Assembly (NCBI RefSeq): GCF_008364765.1
Contig: NZ_VTUY01000005.1
Location: forward strand, 233,297-297,296
DNA length: 64,000 nt
Origin: Bacillus sp. CH30_1T
GTDB taxonomy: Bacteria; Bacillota; Bacilli; Bacillales; Bacillaceae_B
Direction of reading: 5' to 3'
The translations under genes were made by a program, and so were the position numbers. The notes beneath the pieces are model-generated. The model was not told where the DNA came from. It did no database searches and worked only from the letters and a program-made list of their open reading frames with translations. This document shows positions 11,759 to 49,194 of this stretch, one piece after another. The first letter of the stretch is position 1; each line of letters begins with the position of its first letter.

Positions 11759-12331
11759 TTGTCCAATCTCATACTCGCTTCACAATCTCCTCGTCGAAAA
11801 GAACTTCTGAAACAAATTCAACTTTCTTTTTCCGTTATCAGCTCTACTGTAGAAGAAACTTTTTCATCTGATTTAATGCCCCATGAAGTCGTGATGTATC
11901 TTGCCGGCAAAAAAGCGAAAGAAATCTCGAATCAATACCCCAGCCACTATGTAATCGGTTCAGACACCGTCGTAGCAAAGGATGACCAGATTCTTGGTAA
12001 ACCTGAATCCAAAGCGGTAGCGAAGGAAATGCTGACAATGCTTTCCGGTTCTACTCATTCTGTTTACACGGGGGTTGCCATTTTGCATGGTGACGTAGAG
12101 AATCTCTTTTATGAAAAAACGGATGTAACGTTTTGGGAGTTGACTTCTAAAGAGATCGACGATTACATTGCATCTGAAGAGCCTTTTGATAAAGCCGGTT
12201 CATATGGTATTCAAGGAATCGGAGCGAAATTTGTCAAAGAAATTAAAGGCGATTATTTCTCCGTCGTTGGTTTACCCATCTCACGAGTGAATCGTGTTTT
12301 ACTTGAAATGGGCTATCTTCAACCAGAATGA
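11759..12331 (+). CDS. maf: Maf nucleoside triphosphate pyrophosphatase
   Basis: Maf proteins hydrolyse dTTP, UTP and modified pyrimidine nucleotides to monophosphates, a house-cleaning activity; in B. subtilis overproduction blocks septation. The signature ASQSPRRKELL is near the N-terminus, with VIGSDTVV and SYGIQGIGAKFVKEIKGDY later, all family-typical. The protein has 190 residues. The start is TTG 11759, with AAAGGA about 10 nt upstream. The stop overlaps an upstream in-frame ATG of radC, so the two genes are coupled. In the lysogen maf and the radC 5' fragment are the last host genes before the prophage. Confidence 0.93.
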   Translation: MSNLILASQSPRRKELLKQIQLSFSVISSTVEETFSSDLMPHEVVMYLAGKKAKEISNQYPSHYVIGSDTVVAKDDQILGKPESKAVAKEMLTMLSGSTHSVYTGVAILHGDVENLFYEKTDVTFWELTSKEIDDYIASEEPFDKAGSYGIQGIGAKFVKEIKGDYFSVVGLPISRVNRVLLEMGYLQPE

Positions 12332-12360
12332 CTCCTTTAACGTACCAAAAGGAGGAACCA

Positions 12361-12792
12361 ATGGTTAAAACAATACCTCAACAGGAAGAAAACAGGCTTA
12401 TGATCCGGGATTTCCCTCAGGATGAAAGACCACGGGAAAGACTGATTCAAAGCGGAGCAGCAAGCCTATCCAATCAGGAGCTTCTGGCTATCTTACTCCG
12501 GACCGGAACAAAATCCGAGTCTGTTCTGCAATTGTCCAATCGGCTGCTCAATCACTTTGATGGATTGAATCTATTAAAAGATGCTTCCCTGGAAGAAATT
12601 ACGAAAACGAAGGGAATCGGCCTTGCAAAAGCGGTTCAAATCATGGCTGCCGTCGAATTCGGTCGAAGAATCAGCAACTTGGCTTTTGATGACAGATATA
12701 GCATCCGTTCCCCCGAAGACGGAGCCAATTATGTCATGAACGACATGAGATTTTTGGCCCAGGAGCATTTTGTATGTATGTACTTTACATAA
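12361..12792 (+). pseudogene. radC: radC 5' part, truncated by prophage
   Basis: This fragment encodes the helix-hairpin-helix half of RadC (DUF2466 family, once implicated in DNA repair). It includes RPRERLIQSG, LLAILLRTGTKSESV, TKGIGLAKAVQIMAA and DMRFLAQEHFVC. The reading frame enters phage DNA at 12777 and stops at 12792 after MYFT. The start ATG 12361 has AAAGGAGG 5 nt upstream. The remaining MPN/JAB part is at 48896-49194. Joining the halves at the TATG core restores [13 protein letters not shown], as in intact RadC proteins. The gene is therefore interrupted, not decayed, and should be restored on excision. Confidence 0.93.
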
Positions 12793-12804: not shown

Positions 12805-14229
12805 TTAATAATAAGAAACCCCTGTTACTTCAACGTTTTTTTCATGTTTTACAAAATGGATACTTTTAATGAAGGTGTTTAAGAATTGGTGTTTTTCACG
12901 CGGGGTAAGTTTTGACCAGTTACGATTGAAGTTAGTTACAATTTGGTTTATGTGTTCTTGATCTACTTTTATCGGTTCAGGCTCGAGTTGTTCAAGTACT
13001 TCCTCAATTGTGCTTAAAGTTTCTTTTGTTTCTCTCATTCTTTCCTCAAATTCCTCATCGGTCATCAAATCTTTTCCCCAGGCTTTCTGGTACTTTTCAC
13101 GTTGCTTTTTAATTGTAGATAGTTGTTTGAGGTACAATTCTTTTTCAGTATTGCTTTTTTCCTCATGTTCAGGAGTGCTATCAAAGGATATTTTCTTCAT
13201 GTAATCTACAAATGCTTTATCTATTTTCAACTCACTAACGCCAATTGACTTTCTTTTGTTAAGAGCACATGCTTGGCATCTATAATGATTATTTTCAGTT
13301 AGTCCTCCATCCTTCTTTCTTTTGTACACTGACCTTTCACTCGTTAGATGATTTCCGCATTTAGGGCATATTAATTTCATTTGGTAAATGAAGAATGAGT
13401 TTACCTTTCGTTTCTTTTTCAGTTGTCGCTCTTTCAATAACTCTTTTACCTGTTCATACTTTTTCTCTGAAATTATTGGCTCATGTGTATTTTTAATTAT
13501 TTCCTCTTTCCATTTTGTCGCCCCATACAAAGCAGGATTAGTCAAAATTCCTTTAACAGAAGTTATATGCCATTGATAACCTCTTACTGGTTTAGCTCCA
13601 GTATTGTCCATATATAATGCTAATTGTCTAAGAGAATATCCTTGTTCGAGCTTCTTTATCATATCAATGATTATTTCTTTTTCGCTCTTGTTAACTACTA
13701 AGACATCATTCTGATCTTTATCAAATCCAAATGGAGCCTTGGCACTATACTTACCTTGGCGGGCTTTTTCAATCTGTCCCATTCGAACACGTTCACCAAG
13801 ATTCTCTCTTTCCCATTGAGCCATAGCAGCGACAAGGGTGATAAACATTCTCCCCATTGCAGTAGTTGTATCGTAAACTTCTGTTACAGACTTGAAATTA
13901 CAATTGTTTTTTTCAAAAATGTCTAATAGCTTATATAAATCGAGTACAGATCTTGTTAATCGATCAAGTCTATAAACCAATACAGTATTTATATGACCTT
14001 GTTTAATATGATCAAGCATAAGTTGGAGCTGAGGTCTTTGAGTGTCTTTACCTGATATACCCTCATCCACATAAAACTTAAATGAGTCCCAGTCCTGTAT
14101 ATGGCAGAAAGCTTTTAATTTTTCACGCTGTGCTGAAATTGAAAACCCTTCTCTTGCTTGTTCTTCGGTTGAAACTCTTATGTAAATACCAACATAATTA
14201 AGTATTTCCTCATTAGAACTTTTCATCAT
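12805..14229 (-). CDS. int: Large serine recombinase (phage integrase)
   Basis: This 474-residue serine integrase catalyses attP x attB integration and, with a directionality factor, excision. The N-terminal resolvase domain has the nucleophile Ser20 in YIRVST and the arginine-rich YRLDRLTRS helix. A recombinase domain follows (GYSLRQLALYM, LTNPALYGATKW), then a zinc ribbon (CPKCGNHL ... CQAC) and a long coiled-coil typical of this class. ATG 14229 or 14226 follows an AAAGGAGA site. The gene ends about 30 nt from attL. No directionality factor was recognised; small early ORFs are candidates. Confidence 0.95.
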   Translation of the reverse strand: MMKSSNEEILNYVGIYIRVSTEEQAREGFSISAQREKLKAFCHIQDWDSFKFYVDEGISGKDTQRPQLQLMLDHIKQGHINTVLVYRLDRLTRSVLDLYKLLDIFEKNNCNFKSVTEVYDTTTAMGRMFITLVAAMAQWERENLGERVRMGQIEKARQGKYSAKAPFGFDKDQNDVLVVNKSEKEIIIDMIKKLEQGYSLRQLALYMDNTGAKPVRGYQWHITSVKGILTNPALYGATKWKEEIIKNTHEPIISEKKYEQVKELLKERQLKKKRKVNSFFIYQMKLICPKCGNHLTSERSVYKRKKDGGLTENNHYRCQACALNKRKSIGVSELKIDKAFVDYMKKISFDSTPEHEEKSNTEKELYLKQLSTIKKQREKYQKAWGKDLMTDEEFEERMRETKETLSTIEEVLEQLEPEPIKVDQEHINQIVTNFNRNWSKLTPREKHQFLNTFIKSIHFVKHEKNVEVTGVSYY

Positions 14230-23767: not shown

Positions 23768-23828
23768 CTGTGGAAAAACTCCCTGGTTAATCTTAAAATG
23801 TAATTAGTAACTTTTGGGAGTGTTTTAT

Positions 23829-24686
23829 ATGACTATAGAAAAAGAAGAAAAGAAAAGTTGTTTTGTGGTGACTCCAATTGGTGGTAATAATACAGACACT
23901 AGAAGGGCGGCCGATGGAGTTATAGACTCGGTAATTATTCCTGTTCTTGAAGAAATAGGATTTAAGGTTGATGTGGCACATAGGATGTACAATACTGGAT
24001 CTATTAATAAACAAGTTATATCCAGGATCTTAAATGATGATTTAGTTATCGCAAACCTTTCTGGTCTTAATCCAAATGTAATGTATGAGTTAGCTATAAG
24101 ACATGCAGTTAGAAAGCCTATAGTCCAGATTTGTGAAGAGGGAACTAAACTTCCTTTTGATATAACAGAGGAACGAACAATTTTTTATGTTAATGATATG
24201 AGTGGTGTTATTGAGCTTAGAAACAATATTCTAACAACAGTAGCACAGGCGATGGAAGAAAAAGAAGTTGACAATCCAATATATAGAGTTATAGAGAGTA
24301 ATTCAGTATTAAAAGATGTTCATGTTAAAGAGCCTGATAAATATATTTTACATAGATTTGAAATGCTTGAAGAGAAGGTAATATCAGCTATTCAATCGAA
24401 TGCCTTTAGAAAGGTTGGAGAAAGAGATAATAAGAAACTTAGAACAACACAAACATTGCACTTTAGTATTTTAGAAGACGATTTTGACGTGTCGGAATTA
24501 ATTAAGCTACTGAAAAAATCGTTTGTTGAAATTAAGGTAATTAATAAGCCATCATTTGACACCAGTGGTGAGAATCTATTCCTGGATTTAAGAACAGAGC
24601 GTGAAATTGGTGATAAAGAATTGAAATCATTCTTTGAGAATTATTATTATAACGAAATTAAATTCATGGGTTCATTACCTTTTTAA
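23829..24686 (+). CDS. TIR/nucleoside deoxyribosyltransferase-like protein (candidate defence effector)
   Basis: This ~285-residue protein starts with a TIR-like/nucleoside 2-deoxyribosyltransferase-like Rossmann fold: CFVVTPIGG (11-19), DSVIIPVLEEIGF, then DDLVIANLSGLNPNVMYELAIRHA with a likely catalytic Glu87, and KPIVQI. In these folds the Glu after such a YEL pattern attacks an N-glycosidic bond, as in TIR NADases. A linker helix (HRFEMLEEKVISAIQ) and a C-terminal ~75-residue alpha/beta domain (LHFSILEDDFDVSELIKLL) of unknown type follow, perhaps a sensor. It is AT-richer than neighbours and sits alone between terminators, between arpU and the packaging genes, so it is a moron-type insertion. 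NAD-related or nucleotide-cleaving anti-phage activity is inferred. ATG 23829 follows GGGAG. Confidence 0.7.
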   Translation: MTIEKEEKKSCFVVTPIGGNNTDTRRAADGVIDSVIIPVLEEIGFKVDVAHRMYNTGSINKQVISRILNDDLVIANLSGLNPNVMYELAIRHAVRKPIVQICEEGTKLPFDITEERTIFYVNDMSGVIELRNNILTTVAQAMEEKEVDNPIYRVIESNSVLKDVHVKEPDKYILHRFEMLEEKVISAIQSNAFRKVGERDNKKLRTTQTLHFSILEDDFDVSELIKLLKKSFVEIKVINKPSFDTSGENLFLDLRTEREIGDKELKSFFENYYYNEIKFMGSLPF

Positions 24687-41551: not shown

Positions 41552-42526
41552 ATGATTAATAAAAGATTAGAAAGTTTAGATATTGCAAAAGGGTTACTAA
41601 TTATCTTGGTAGTACTTGGTCACTCTACATTTGAATTTACGGATATTATTTATTGGTTCCACATGCCTGCATTCTTTATAATAAGCGGTTTATTGTATAA
41701 AGAAAAAACTTTGAAATTAATCAAGTTGTTTACATCCTTATTTATCCCCTTTTTGGTTTACATCATATTAAATGTCTTCATACGATGTATTACGAATCCA
41801 AATTTTGAGGGGATAAACGATGTAACAATGTTATTAGAGCGGCATCTTTATAATGGCAAAGTAATAGGTGGAGTGTTTTGGTATATCCCTGTTTTTTTCA
41901 TGACTAAAGTGATGTTTGATAGCTTATACAAGGTTTTTGAAAAACAAATTTGGGTCATAATGTTTATTTGTTATGGGGCAGCTCACTTAATTTCAATTTA
42001 TTTAATTCCAGATTTAAATAATTATTTTAATACTTCTAAGACTTTGGTTTTACCTTGGGATTTAGATGTTGTATTAATGGCGGTATGGTATTACTATATT
42101 GGTTTTTTAATTAAGAACTTTGTAAGTAAAATAGATTATAAAATAGCAATGTTTACATTCATTCTCTGTATCGGTTTTATTCTTGCTAATGGAATATTCG
42201 ATATAAATTATCACCTCGATATGAAATATTCATATTATAAAGCTTTGATTTTGGATACTTTTATCCCACTTCTGTTTACCATTTTTACATTAGCATTGAG
42301 TTCACTTATATTAAAATCGAAACTGAACAATTTGTTCTCTTATATAGGGAAAAAATCAATGTACATTATGTTTTTACACATTCCAATATGTGCTTCGATA
42401 TTAGAAATTAATAATTATATAATTTTCACAATAGTTGGAGTAGTGATCCCCTTAGGAATAGCTTTTGTGATTGAGCAAAATAGATACACAACTTACATTT
42501 TCACTGGTAAGCAACCAAGTATGTAG
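41552..42526 (+). CDS. Membrane acyltransferase (acyltransferase-3 family)
   Basis: This 324-residue integral membrane protein has about ten TM helices. The N-terminus (RLESLDIAKGLLIILVVLGHS) has the conserved catalytic-type His found in acyltransferase-3 enzymes, followed by IIYWFHMPAFFIISGLLY. Such enzymes O-acetylate cell-surface polysaccharides or wall polymers. It lies between the tail fibre and lysis genes, a common place for conversion genes. It may alter the host surface and block related phages; this is inference. A terminator follows, and a GGAGGGGG site precedes ATG 41552. Confidence 0.82.
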   Translation: MINKRLESLDIAKGLLIILVVLGHSTFEFTDIIYWFHMPAFFIISGLLYKEKTLKLIKLFTSLFIPFLVYIILNVFIRCITNPNFEGINDVTMLLERHLYNGKVIGGVFWYIPVFFMTKVMFDSLYKVFEKQIWVIMFICYGAAHLISIYLIPDLNNYFNTSKTLVLPWDLDVVLMAVWYYYIGFLIKNFVSKIDYKIAMFTFILCIGFILANGIFDINYHLDMKYSYYKALILDTFIPLLFTIFTLALSSLILKSKLNNLFSYIGKKSMYIMFLHIPICASILEINNYIIFTIVGVVIPLGIAFVIEQNRYTTYIFTGKQPSM

Positions 42527-42909: not shown

Positions 42910-43161
42910 TTGGAACAACTATTATCTTTAGACTTTGGAGCCTATGTCGCACTTGCGTTTATTCTTTATGTGATTCGTGAATCTGGAAAGGTCCCTAACA
43001 GCTTAATCCCTGTTGTGGGGCTTTTTTTAGGACTGGGATTCGCCTTTTTCGAGTATAGAGACTTTGACTTTGATGTGATGTTAGAAGGAATCAAGTATGC
43101 CATGTTGGGTGTCGGGACCGTCGCAGGTATTAAATATGCTCAAGAAAAGAGGGATTTATAA
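42910..43161 (+). CDS. Holin
   Basis: This 83-residue protein has two to three hydrophobic segments (YVALAFILYVIRES, SLIPVVGLFLGLGFAFFEY, YAMLGVGTVAGIKYA) and a charged C-terminus, as in small phage holins. TTG 42910 has AGGAGG 7 nt upstream. The stop overlaps the endolysin ATG. Confidence 0.85.
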   Translation: MEQLLSLDFGAYVALAFILYVIRESGKVPNSLIPVVGLFLGLGFAFFEYRDFDFDVMLEGIKYAMLGVGTVAGIKYAQEKRDL

Positions 43162-43964
43162 TGGATTTCATCTATCCAGCAAAAGGTAGAATCACTTCTC
43201 GTTTCGGTAAAGACTTTCTGAATGGTGTGGCCAGAATGCATAATGGCATTGATATTGCTCAGATTGGTGTAAATGAGGTAGTTGCTTCTGCTAGTGGCAA
43301 AGTATCAAAGTCTTATTTATCGTCATCCTACGGAGAGTGTGTACGTGTTTTGCACGAGATAAACGGGCAGACTTGGGAAACTCTTTATGCCCACATGAAA
43401 ACCGGGTCCAGGAAGGTAAAAGAAGGTGAATATGTTACACAAGGTCAACCTCTCGGAATCATGGGGAACACAGGGTATTCCTTTGGCCAACATCTTCACT
43501 TTGAGATGCACAAAGGAAGATGGAATATTGATAAGAGTCAGGCTGTGGATCCATTGGATTATCTGTTGAAGGATCTTTCTTCTTCTTCTTCCTCAAGCGT
43601 TCATACAGTAAAGTCTGGAGATACACTTTGGGAGATTGCTAAGGACAATCATCTTTCAGTGAGTGAGTTAAAATCATTGAACGGATTAAAGTCTGATGTG
43701 ATTCATCCTGGGGATAAACTAACATTATGCGGATCATTATCCCATGTAGGGAAAAGGGCAGAATGTAAAGTGGCCAAACTGAGATTTTACTCTAAGCCAT
43801 CTTGGAATGATGAATATGTGGTTGACTATCTCACTCAAGGTTATGGATTTCCAACAATCGTAAGAAAATTGAAAGTAGACGATGCTTATCAGTTTGAAGT
43901 GAAGAACTCAAAGGGCAAAACGTTTTATGTAACAGCCAATGAAAAATATATCCGAGTAGAATAA
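43161..43964 (+). CDS. Endolysin: M23 peptidase, LysM and C-terminal wall-binding domain
   Basis: The N-terminal M23 peptidase has the metal residues in HNGIDIA and GQHLHFEMHKGRW. A Ser linker (DLSSSSSSS) leads to a LysM domain (HTVKSGDTLWEIAKDNHLSVSEL), then a C-terminal domain (AKLRFYSKPSWNDEYVVDYLTQGYGF) resembling DUF5776/SH3-like wall-binding modules. It cleaves peptidoglycan peptides (endopeptidase inferred). 267 residues, no signal peptide, so holin dependent. A terminator follows. Confidence 0.9.
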   Translation: MDFIYPAKGRITSRFGKDFLNGVARMHNGIDIAQIGVNEVVASASGKVSKSYLSSSYGECVRVLHEINGQTWETLYAHMKTGSRKVKEGEYVTQGQPLGIMGNTGYSFGQHLHFEMHKGRWNIDKSQAVDPLDYLLKDLSSSSSSSVHTVKSGDTLWEIAKDNHLSVSELKSLNGLKSDVIHPGDKLTLCGSLSHVGKRAECKVAKLRFYSKPSWNDEYVVDYLTQGYGFPTIVRKLKVDDAYQFEVKNSKGKTFYVTANEKYIRVE

Positions 43965-44025
43965 TGGAATACGGATTGGATAATACTAATACTCAGCTAG
44001 AATAATTTCCTTCCCATGTCAAAAG

Positions 44026-44053
44026 CCCTTCTCAATCGAGAGGGGATTTTTCT
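44026..44053 (+). terminator. Terminator after lysis genes (left flank of SIR2 gene)
   Basis: CCCTTCTC (44026-44033) pairs with GAGAGGGG (44038-44045), followed by a T tract. Nearly identical to the terminator at 45898. Confidence 0.88.
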
Positions 44054-44071
44054 TTTTTATGGTAATTTGTA

Positions 44072-44077
44072 TATAAT
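44072..44077 (+). promoter_or_regulatory. Candidate promoter of the SIR2 gene
   Basis: A perfect -10 TATAAT lies here, preceded by TG four bases earlier. The -35 region is only T-rich. Because terminators stand on both sides, an own promoter is needed. Confidence 0.5.
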
Positions 44078-44107
44078 GAAGTATACCAAGGTAGTATCAC
44101 AAAAAAA

Positions 44108-45730
44108 ATGGATGGTGAGAATTTGGGGACAATTTTGGATAGATTGATAGAAAATAATGAATTCCCAGTTGTTTTTATTGGTGCAGGTATTTCAAAAAGA
44201 TATCTAGAAAACTTCCCTGACTGGACCAGTTTATTGGAGGAATATTGGACGGGGATGGGGTTAAGTAATTTTTACGGTGAGTTTAATAATTTGATAGATC
44301 AATTGAGGAAAACAAAACCTTCACTTTCTGAAAAAGAACTAGAGCACTTTTCGAATATATCTATGGGATCTCTAATTGAAAGAAAATACAATGCTACATT
44401 TAACGCAGGACAAGTTCACATCCCTAACTTCACTCCAAAAGATGCATTTAAAATGAAGGTATCTCCCTTTAAAAAAGCTCTGTCGGAACGATTTAAAGCT
44501 TATAAATTCAAGGATGAAATGGATCATGAGTACCAAGCTTTTAAAAGAATGCTTTTAAAAACTCAAATAATGCTAACCACTAACTATGACAAATTTATTG
44601 AAGACTCCTACAATAATGATAGCACTTATAAAATCACAAAATATATTGGCCAAAATGGTTTCTTTAAAGAGACCTTCGGGTTTGCAGAACTTTACAAGCT
44701 TCATGGCTGTATTGATACTCCTAATGAAATAATTATCTCAGAATCAGATTATGATAGGTTTGAGAAGAACTCAGTCTTAATTAGTGCAAAAATAATTTCA
44801 ATGATGATGCATTCTCCAATTATCTTTTTAGGTTACTCATTGACAGATATAAATGTGAGAGCAATCATAAAGGACTTCACTCAGTCATTATCTGAGGAGG
44901 AGATTCAAATCTTAGAAGATAGACTGGTTTTGGTTGAATGGAAACAAGGTGAACAAGAATTTATTGAGGAAGTAATAAATGACAAAGATTTGGGTTGCAA
45001 ATTAAAGGTAATCAAAACTGACAATTATGAAAAAATTTATAAAACAATTAGTTCAATTAATCAAGGAATAGCACCATCGGAGGTTAGGAAGTACCAACAT
45101 GTTATTAAAGAACTTATTATCGACAGAGGAAAAAAAGGAGCATTAAATTCTGTTTTGCTATCACCTGATGAACTTGATAATTTGGAAGAAAATCTTAAAA
45201 CTAAAAATATTACTGTTGCATTAGGCGATGCAAAATACATTTTCCAGATTCCTGACATTATTAATTATACGCTCGATTATATAACTGACAAAGATGAAAT
45301 TAGCAACGAGATTAGAATGAGGTTTGCGGTAAACCAAAACGGAACAGCACGTTTCCCAATTCATAAGATTTTAGATCGGGAATTAATACAAAAAAGTGGA
45401 TTGCATCCTACAGAAAAAGATAAGCTAATTCAAAAAATAAAAAGGGTATCAAACTTCAATGAGCATTTTGATACTATAGTTAGTTCATCGGTGATAAAGC
45501 AAAACACTAATTCTGTTGAAGAGATTGTAGGGTTGAAAAATACAAAAAAGTCAAAAATATATGAGACGTTGTCCTTTAATTTAAAGAGGTTAAACTTAGA
45601 AGAAGTAAGGGTATTTTTAATTAAAGAGTTAGAAGAATTGAAGGAAGTTGGGGAAATTAAAATGATAACAGAATTAAGAAGGCTACTATTGCTATACGAT
45701 ATACTAAAATACAAAGGAGGCAATGCCTAA
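44108..45730 (+). CDS. SIR2-family NADase-like protein (candidate defence gene)
   Basis: This 540-residue protein has an N-terminal SIR2_2-type domain (about 1-250). It has FIGAGIS (23-29), TTNYDKF (about 157-163, with the catalytic Asn/Asp), LHG (about 198-200) and IFLGYSLTD (about 239-247). SIR2 domains of bacterial defence proteins cleave NAD+ to stop phage growth; none of the known partners is adjacent. The C-terminal ~290 residues (VRKYQHVIKELIIDRG onward, ending LRRLLLLYDILKYKGG) are helical with no recognised domain and may be the sensor or oligomerisation part. It is AT-rich, own-promoter, and bounded by near-identical terminators, i.e. a moron. ATG 44108 is used; TTG 44123 is possible. 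A 9-bp hairpin (GGAGGCAAT/ATTGCCTCC, 45716-45757) overlaps the stop. Confidence 0.8.
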   Translation: MDGENLGTILDRLIENNEFPVVFIGAGISKRYLENFPDWTSLLEEYWTGMGLSNFYGEFNNLIDQLRKTKPSLSEKELEHFSNISMGSLIERKYNATFNAGQVHIPNFTPKDAFKMKVSPFKKALSERFKAYKFKDEMDHEYQAFKRMLLKTQIMLTTNYDKFIEDSYNNDSTYKITKYIGQNGFFKETFGFAELYKLHGCIDTPNEIIISESDYDRFEKNSVLISAKIISMMMHSPIIFLGYSLTDINVRAIIKDFTQSLSEEEIQILEDRLVLVEWKQGEQEFIEEVINDKDLGCKLKVIKTDNYEKIYKTISSINQGIAPSEVRKYQHVIKELIIDRGKKGALNSVLLSPDELDNLEENLKTKNITVALGDAKYIFQIPDIINYTLDYITDKDEISNEIRMRFAVNQNGTARFPIHKILDRELIQKSGLHPTEKDKLIQKIKRVSNFNEHFDTIVSSSVIKQNTNSVEEIVGLKNTKKSKIYETLSFNLKRLNLEEVRVFLIKELEELKEVGEIKMITELRRLLLLYDILKYKGGNA

Positions 45731-45897
45731 CCACCAGAGTGATTGCCAATTGCCTCCCTGCTCTTACATAATATTATATGTTAATTATAGGAATTGGATA
45801 CTTTTAAGTCAATGAAAATTTATTCCATTTTAAGAATACAAAGTAGTAAATGTTAAGCTGAAGTGACACCACAAACTACAAAGGCCCACAAGATAAT

Positions 45898-45924
45898 CCC
45901 TTCTCACTTGAGAGGGGATTTTTT
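45898..45924 (+). terminator. Terminator after SIR2 gene (near copy of the left one)
   Basis: CCCTTCTC (45898-45905) pairs with GAGAGGGG (45910-45917) and T residues follow. Stem sequence is identical to that at 44026. Confidence 0.88.
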
Positions 45925-46896: not shown

Positions 46897-47127
46897 ATGT
46901 TATCGAAATATCGTGATGATGGATTAGATAAAAAGATGGAATGGGGTACTGCGAGAAAGTCAGCACTTGAAAAAGGCCTAGAGGGGTTCATGAAGGAGAT
47001 TGATGAAGATGAAGAACTTGGGTTGTATTATATTAGTTCACATTGGATGGAAAACCCTAAATACATTTGTAAAACGAAGGGATTGAAAGGTGATGTAGTG
47101 ATAGGGTGGAAAGGTATTCATTACTAA
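46897..47127 (+). CDS. Hypothetical protein, 76 aa
   Basis: ATG 46897 has AAAGGAGG 6 nt upstream. The product is charged (DGLDKKMEWGTARKSALEKG) with a strand-rich end (GLKGDVVIGWKGIHY). Its stop overlaps the FtsK-like start, so it is part of that operon. No family recognised. Confidence 0.6.
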   Translation: MLSKYRDDGLDKKMEWGTARKSALEKGLEGFMKEIDEDEELGLYYISSHWMENPKYICKTKGLKGDVVIGWKGIHY

Positions 47128-48308
47128 TGATCGAATTACTAACCATCCCAGCCGTTATATTAGGTGCCGCCCTCATCCCCCGTAAACGTAACGATAAACG
47201 GACCATTCAACAGGTGCTTATCAACCGTAAGATATGCTTCAAAAAAGGTGATAACCTTATCTACCCTAAACTGGAATCTACTCACGACAGAGGGACACAC
47301 ACCACATACATCTACACGCTACCAAAGGGGATGCCTAGCGAAGTTTTCGACACTATACTGCCGGCATTAAAAGAAGCCCTTAACAGGGAAGTGGAGTACG
47401 AATATGAAGGGGTGATGAAATTGAGAGTGTTCAAAGGGAAGCTACCGAAAAAATGGAGCTATGATAAGTCGTTGATCCAAAAAGGAACATGGGAGGTCCC
47501 TATAGGGAAGAATCATCAAGGGATCCTTTACCACAATTTTGAACACTACCCACACATACTTGTAGGAGGTGTGACTAGATTCGGTAAAACAGTGTTCATG
47601 AAAGAAACTTTTCACACTCTCATGATGAACATGGGTGACGATGTAGAGTTTTATATACTCGATTTAAAGGCAGGGTTAGAGTTCTATAAGTATAAAGCAT
47701 TCCCACAGGTTAAAGAGGTTGCCTGTGATGTATATGAAGCAGCTGAAACTCTTATAAACGTGACAGATGAGTTAAAGCGCAGAGAATTAATGTTCAGAGA
47801 CAAAGGGTATACGAACATACTGGACACTCCTATCAAGAAGCGAACATTCATCATAGTTGATGAAGGGGCTGAATTGTCCCCTAATATCGTGAAGGATAAG
47901 AAGGGGAAAAAGTACGCAGAGTTTTGTCAGGCTTCCCTGAGTGAAATCGCTCGTATTGGTGGGGCGGTGGGTATGCGATTAATTTATGCGACACAGTATC
48001 CAACAAAAGAGGCGGTCCCTATGCAAGTGAAAATGAACATTGTAGCCCGTATGTCCTTTATATGTGCGTCACGTATTGCAAGCCAAGTGTTATTGGATGA
48101 AGTTGGGGCTGAAGATTTACCTTCTATACCGGGAAGGGCCATATACATGGTTGAGAAGAAACGCACGGTCCAGGTACCATACATTGACGATAAAATCATT
48201 TACGACATGATGGAGGGAGAACATGAGACAAGAAAGACTAGAAAGTCTGTTAATGACCATCGACCGATTGGGGATAGTGAAGATAAAGCATCTACAACAC
48301 ATTCATAA
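47127..48308 (+). CDS. FtsK/HerA-superfamily ATPase
   Basis: This 393-residue ATPase has Walker A VGGVTRFGKTVFM (about 148-160), Walker B FIIVDEGAEL (about 240) and an Arg-rich motif near MRLIYATQYP. One N-terminal hydrophobic segment (IELLTIPAVILGAALIP) suggests membrane attachment. FtsK/TcpA-like proteins pump DNA in chromosome segregation, conjugation or plasmid systems; SIR2-HerA defence uses a related ATPase. The gene is paired with the replication-relaxation gene, which it overlaps by 86 nt. ATG 47127 starts in the previous TAA. A DNA-translocase role is inferred from family. Confidence 0.85.
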   Translation: MIELLTIPAVILGAALIPRKRNDKRTIQQVLINRKICFKKGDNLIYPKLESTHDRGTHTTYIYTLPKGMPSEVFDTILPALKEALNREVEYEYEGVMKLRVFKGKLPKKWSYDKSLIQKGTWEVPIGKNHQGILYHNFEHYPHILVGGVTRFGKTVFMKETFHTLMMNMGDDVEFYILDLKAGLEFYKYKAFPQVKEVACDVYEAAETLINVTDELKRRELMFRDKGYTNILDTPIKKRTFIIVDEGAELSPNIVKDKKGKKYAEFCQASLSEIARIGGAVGMRLIYATQYPTKEAVPMQVKMNIVARMSFICASRIASQVLLDEVGAEDLPSIPGRAIYMVEKKRTVQVPYIDDKIIYDMMEGEHETRKTRKSVNDHRPIGDSEDKASTTHS

Positions 48309-48861
48309 GTTAGGCAGCTACCGTAATGCCTGTAAAATCGTGAATGGCTTGAGTGAATACACCCATCAAAAATACTGGAACAAAGAAAAGGTTATCTATC
48401 TAAACGAGAAGGCTCGGAAGCTTATCGATTCTGAACACAGCGTTACAATGTCACTTAACACAGAACATTACCTATTAAGGAACGACATCTATATCCACTT
48501 CGGTTGCCCTCATGATTGGGATATCGAACACACCTTTGAAACGGTTACAGAACCACTCTCACGGACAGATATTATTATCCAAGGGATAAAGCCTTCAAAC
48601 AAAAGAAAGCTTGTCACAGACGCTTATTTCACGCGTAACGGCTATGCTTATTTAATAGAGATTGATAACAAGCTGAACATGGCAGATAATCGAAAGAAGG
48701 TGAGCAATTATGCGGAGGTTCTTCCACTTATACGTAAAAATTTCAACGGTGCGCCTATTCTCTATTTTTTTACCCACACCAAGGATCGTAAAAAGAAGCT
48801 ATCTACGTGGTTAAAAGATCGTGGCATCCGGCATGAAGTAATTCTGTACGATGAAATTTAA
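48223..48861 (+). CDS. Replication-relaxation family protein
   Basis: This 212-residue protein resembles the replication-relaxation family (PF13814). It has an N-terminal winged helix (RLGIVKIKHLQHIHKLGSYRNACK), then a domain with VTDAYFTRNGYAYLIEID that has an Asp...Glu-x-Asp pattern like restriction-endonuclease-fold proteins. It follows the FtsK-like gene in many Bacillus phages and plasmids and may act at plasmid-type replication origins. ATG 48223 has GGAGGGAGA. The 86-nt out-of-frame overlap with the ATPase gene is unusually long. Confidence 0.72.
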   Translation: MRQERLESLLMTIDRLGIVKIKHLQHIHKLGSYRNACKIVNGLSEYTHQKYWNKEKVIYLNEKARKLIDSEHSVTMSLNTEHYLLRNDIYIHFGCPHDWDIEHTFETVTEPLSRTDIIIQGIKPSNKRKLVTDAYFTRNGYAYLIEIDNKLNMADNRKKVSNYAEVLPLIRKNFNGAPILYFFTHTKDRKKKLSTWLKDRGIRHEVILYDEI

Positions 48862-48899: not shown

Positions 48900-49194
48900 C
48901 TTATACCTCAATACAAAGAATCAAGTTCTCCACAAGCAAACCATCTTTATTGGAAGTCTGAATGCTTCCATCGTGCACCCCCGGGAGGTCTTCAAGGAAG
49001 CCTTCCGACGATCCGCCGCATCGATCATTTGTATCCATAACCATCCATCGGGAGATCCGACTCCAAGCAGAGAAGATATTGAAGTGACAAAAAGATTAGT
49101 GGAATGTGGTCGAATCATTGGTATTGATATACTCGATCATCTTATAATAGGGGAGAAGAAGTTTATCAGTTTAAAGGAAAAAGGGTATTTATGA
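48896..49194 (+). pseudogene. radC: radC 3' part, separated by prophage
   Basis: This fragment encodes the RadC MPN/JAB-type domain: [30 protein letters not shown] and the metal-binding [16 protein letters not shown]. It has no start of its own except a late GTG. In frame with 12361-12776 it gives a full RadC of about 243 residues. Restored on prophage excision. Confidence 0.9.

Follow-up and report, generated by a model that had tools for sequence, protein, structure and literature searches.

The SIR2-family gene lies on the forward strand at positions 44108..45730 of the window (the whole stretch of 64,000 nucleotides that was analysed), where it is listed as an open reading frame of 540 codons beginning with ATG. 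The preliminary description had claimed an ORF at these coordinates, and the 296 homologues (120 listed) that passed E ≤ 1e-5 out of 7997 scored confirm a real gene and not a chance frame. The consensus of the relatives (M-x-x-I-L-D) starts at residue 6 of the listed frame, and GGTGAG precedes the TTG at 44123, which makes this codon the likelier start and gives a gene of 535 codons. The deduced product contains a predicted SIR2 NADase domain (44132..45067, +, residues 9-320) with the GxG, Asn and His of the NAD site, in agreement with the core motifs first reported; the conserved residues Asn159 (44582-44584, +) and His199 (44702-44704, +) are predicted to be of catalytic type. Sirtuin deacylases carry a four-cysteine zinc ribbon, which cannot be present in this product, since it has only two cysteines (201 and 297); three or fewer were likewise found in 46 of the 58 proteins compared, 7 of them having none. 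Membership of the SIR2 superfamily would favour a sirtuin-type protein deacylase instead of an NADase, but the cysteine counts, together with the finding that the closest solved structures are anti-phage NADases, make this reading scarcely credible.

Structure comparison of the model extended the SIR2 fold to about residue 320 instead of 250, so that the unmatched C-terminal part comprises about 220 residues and not the roughly 290 first assigned to it. That this part resembles no known domain was borne out, with no Pfam, PDB-sequence or clear fold match in profile and structure searches and no match of the C-terminal profile to PDB chains below E 0.78. It is composed of a conserved linker (45068..45253, +, residues 321-382) and an all-helical domain (45254..45727, +, residues 383-540). 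The linker was modelled with low confidence (pLDDT <50 at residues 335-341, 343-358, and 360-379), while its mean top-residue frequency in the alignment of relatives was 0.58, and it may serve as a switch or contact region. The structure prediction suggested earlier as a check was thus poor for the linker and gave confident helices without strands at about residues 384-535, with block pLDDT values of 72-96 in one model and, except for the last ten residues, of 92-98 in a second prediction. This helical domain is a candidate sensor.

Over its full length, C-terminus included, the product matched the phage-defence candidate PDC-S25 of PADLOC-DB 2.0.0 (models PDLC04967/PDLC04968, E 9.5e-204 and 1.6e-84) at residues 9-535 and 9-536, the best match covering model positions 3-526 of 528, as well as PHROG 2695 (residues 9-536, E 6.4e-127), a group annotated as of unknown function. 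No sequence difference sets the gene apart from PDC-S25, a library entry without description or tested function, in whose name the "S" presumably denotes a single gene. A comparison of the C-terminus with described defence families had been proposed as the test of novelty, and the strong match to PDC-S25 (E 9.5e-204) contradicts the designation of the gene as an undescribed defence, lowering it to a catalogued candidate; by sequence, it is a further member of that defence-candidate family. A literature search of limited reach found no functional study of the PDC-S25 family and no NAD+ or infection data for it, and it is gene context and fold that point to a probable role in defence.

The gene is preceded by holins and an endolysin (43161..43964, +; metallo-endopeptidase- and LysM-like), the latter directly upstream of its cassette. 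The terminator scan revealed two intrinsic terminators on the + strand, one between the lysis genes and the SIR2 gene (44026..44045), and one downstream of the latter (45895..45920). They are near-identical, and their pattern occurs at only 2 places in the 64 kb (44026-44045 and 45898-45917), against a chance mean of 0.02. The SIR2 gene is an extra gene among phage genes, closed by its own terminator, and the matching terminators on both sides give it the anatomy of a moron. Of the promoter and terminator originally attributed to the gene, the terminator is well supported and the promoter is weak: a TATAAT read directly at 44072..44077 (+), a possible -10 box, has no good -35, and the promoter scan gave no + strand hit in the interval 44007-44108.

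The surrounding prophage splits radC, the N-terminal part of which (12328..12792, +) forms the left chromosome edge, its ORF ending at 12792, and the C-terminal part of which (48973..49194, +; ORF listed from 48973) forms the right one. The position of the latter places the SIR2 gene inside the prophage, as proposed, about 3 kb in from its right end and not at the end itself; the exact att site was not found. Next to the left edge are a repressor and an integrase of the resolvase/serine type (12805..14229, -; phrog_95, 2.2e-133; phrog_125, 1e-45), the latter additionally matching a DNA-invertase family. To the right of the SIR2 gene follow a small HTH gene on the - strand, an FtsK/SpoIIIE-like and a replication-initiation-like gene (47106-48861, +), and then radC; PADLOC SspH models match the FtsK-like part of the first of these two (4.2e-20).

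With respect to known systems, Kongming KomC, the SIR2 protein of SIR2-HerA, Avs5 and SPARSA have the SIR2 domain fold in common with the present protein; they either consist of SIR2 alone or carry other fused modules, and they work in other assemblies. The gene, which stands alone and joins a SIR2 NADase core to a divergent C-terminus, follows the plan of the defence-associated sirtuin DSR2. DSR1 and DSR2, however, join an N-terminal SIR2 domain to a large C-terminal part, reaching about 1000 residues in all against 540 here, and the full DSR2 chains compared (915-1002 residues) had no C-terminal sequence match to the SIR2 gene. The passages of a review bearing on these proteins (PMC10286901) describe DSR proteins as having an uncharacterised C-terminus and no NTPase module, DSR2 as activated by the phage tail tube protein, and all SIR2 systems then reported as depleting NAD+.

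A Thoeris ThsA-like effector, answering to a second messenger made by a distant TIR protein, was also considered. The SIR2 part gave matches to PADLOC ThsA models, and ThsA structures align up to residues 510-516, taking in a few C-terminal residues; the best stretches of these models, however, cover only residues 137-266, one model having a second, unplaced stretch. ThsA ends in a SLOG (STALD) domain, according to the relevant part of PMC11312562, whereas the C-terminus modelled here is predicted to consist of helices without strands. Thoeris also needs the TIR gene thsB, and the one genome examined here had no PF08937 match (1 of 14 control genomes did); none of the scanned neighbours was a ThsB-type TIR gene, as had been noted before. 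Membership of Thoeris is contradicted by the non-SLOG C-terminus of the models and the missing ThsB. The prophage does encode a TIR-like protein of 290 residues (23814-24686, +), located 20 kb from the SIR2 gene, and its residues 10-142 match the PADLOC "Effector" TIR model PDLC00733 (4.4e-11), which would suit a ThsA-like effector. None of 17 phage records carrying the SIR2 gene yielded the TIR-like protein, a weak result given that some records are fragments and the set has no positive control. Taken together, a ThsA-like mode of action appears very improbable. The TIR-like ORF also matches phrog_10872 (2.7e-67, function unknown), has no Pfam match, and is partially related to proteins in 57 phage records (Streptococcus, Staphylococcus, Klebsiella and others); it is a possible second defence gene.

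The full-length gene was detected in 1 of the 36 genomes of the genus, one other having a SIR2-core match only, and in 0 of 14 control genomes. Among 397 genomes of the order the C-terminal profile matched 10, and among 398 of the phylum it matched 3, one of these falsely. Such rare and scattered matches indicate a sporadic distribution, as for mobile genes; judging by record titles, the family is scattered through Bacillota and occurs also in Gammaproteobacteria. The survey for homologues in other prophages, likewise suggested at the outset, yielded relatives in Lactococcus phage BK5-T and in Streptococcus phages. Overall, eight phage records contain a relative, seven of which cover 80% of the query and four of which are BK5-T records. 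ORF30 of BK5-T shows 32% identity across 95% of the query and occupies the same slot, annotated as endolysin, terminator, promoter, gene, terminators and integrase; it differs in its annotation as hypothetical and in its host. In three Streptococcus phages the relative is found between repressor and integrase, an interval that in Javan227 additionally contains two hypothetical genes, while the relative in IPP23 is annotated as two ORFs.

Genomic contexts were compared for 63 hand-chosen loci out of 147: of 80 loci in genomes 39 were taken, and of 67 viral loci 24. Genome loci were retained when the best segment was at least 31% identical and the match extended to residue 451 or further; L030, L041, L045 and others with partial or more remote matches were excluded, as were near-duplicates and distant matches among the viral loci. 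The 39 genome loci, among which four broken copies (L017, L036, L038, and L040) are still counted, were surveyed with 34 representative marker proteins. In raw counts, four loci had BREX and five type I restriction-modification (R-M) genes, 12 had an integrase or cI (two of these also R-M), and 20 had none of the 34 markers, several of the latter being short contigs or fragments and three having PADLOC-listed neighbours, so that marker-free loci may still contain phage or defence genes. Spot checks identified PglX, PglZ and BrxL in L013, PglZ in L004, HsdM and HsdR in L032, and HsdM in L020. Furthermore, SIR2 and HerA genes occur less than 4 kb from the relative in Xenorhabdus L028, a HerA gene less than 2 kb from it in Xenorhabdus L029, and an HNH enzyme upstream of it in Photorhabdus L026. 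In two type I R-M loci, L032 (by Pfam) and L040 (judged similar by eye), a DUF3841 gene is found just downstream of the relative.

The position of relatives inside BREX, between pglX and pglZ-brxL in L013, L015 and L017 (the last copy broken into two ORFs) and just before pglZ-brxL in L004, raises the possibility of an accessory or backup effector of BREX or R-M, which would need a partner and whose prophage copy would depend on host factors. Against this, no neighbour recurs from one context to another, and both BK5-T and the 64-kb window hold the gene without adjoining BREX or R-M genes. The commonest single-linkage neighbour clusters within 5.5 kb are lysogeny genes, a helix-turn-helix repressor (28 of 63 loci) and an integrase (23 of 63), in a set of which 24 loci are viral contigs; no cluster exceeds 28 loci and no partner recurs, in keeping with the solo gene reported initially. 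Dependence on a BREX or R-M partner is thus considered unlikely. The repeated location of relatives in phage slots adjoining lysis or repressor genes could instead reflect a role outside defence, as a toxin or NAD-based switch for the prophage (lysis timing, lysogeny) or as passive cargo; the presence of the same family near BREX, R-M and SIR2-HerA genes, and the lack of any phage-marker match in the four BREX loci, speak against such a role, which we regard as quite unlikely.

DSR2 supplies one precedent, and a second, for a single protein of a mobile element, comes from SpbK of ICEBs1, which the consulted part of PMC11984713 presents as a single-protein TIR NADase fired by a phage portal protein, and on both grounds the gene is read as a single-protein abortive-infection NADase against rivals. 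The gene is probably a moron carried by the phage and conferring this defence on the lysogen. Under the proposed mechanism, the N-terminal SIR2 domain, a predicted NAD+ hydrolase, would be kept inactive in the lysogen until another phage infects and one of its products engages the C-terminal linker and helical domain. The protein would then change its assembly or shape and destroy NAD+, and the infected cell would stall or die before the rival phage is released. The trigger, by inference, is a phage product. Several observations count against defence by a moron: the linker is conserved beyond what would be expected of a fast-evolving phage sensor, about half of the genome loci (20/39) are marker-free, 4 of 51 relatives have a C-terminus conserved as much as the SIR2 part or more, and the modelled C-terminus has no clear fold match. 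A bolder proposal, which we put forward only as a doubtful one, is that the linker and helical C-terminus constitute a new phage-sensing module firing the SIR2 NADase, interchangeable between prophages, where it would exclude rivals, and hosts, where it would act as a fail-safe within BREX or restriction loci and fire when the first line is breached. If active, the protein would add to SIR2 defences a compact single-protein NADase that is both phage-carried and BREX-embedded, and its approximately 535 residues with an unmatched C-terminus would make it convenient for finding a phage signal read directly by a SIR2 protein.

The prophage may also contain a second lysogenic-conversion gene, encoding an Acyltransferase-3 family protein (41552-42526, +), between the tail-region and holin genes. 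As regards the insertion site, the N-terminal part of radC was detected in 35 of the 36 genomes of the genus; in the 34 other genomes of these the radC frame has 231-325 codons in 31 and is short in three, compared with 161 codons here. In Exiguobacterium L006 (9122-15175), the SIR2 relative is flanked by mreB and by a radC that appears complete (218 codons), with no phage marker nearby among the 34 representative proteins sought; its location at the same chromosomal place as the prophage suggests that the radC-mreB place is a shared insertion hotspot. The three short radC frames of the genus, with 185 (G409), 148 (G413) and 171 codons (G233), possibly mark further elements inserted in this gene.
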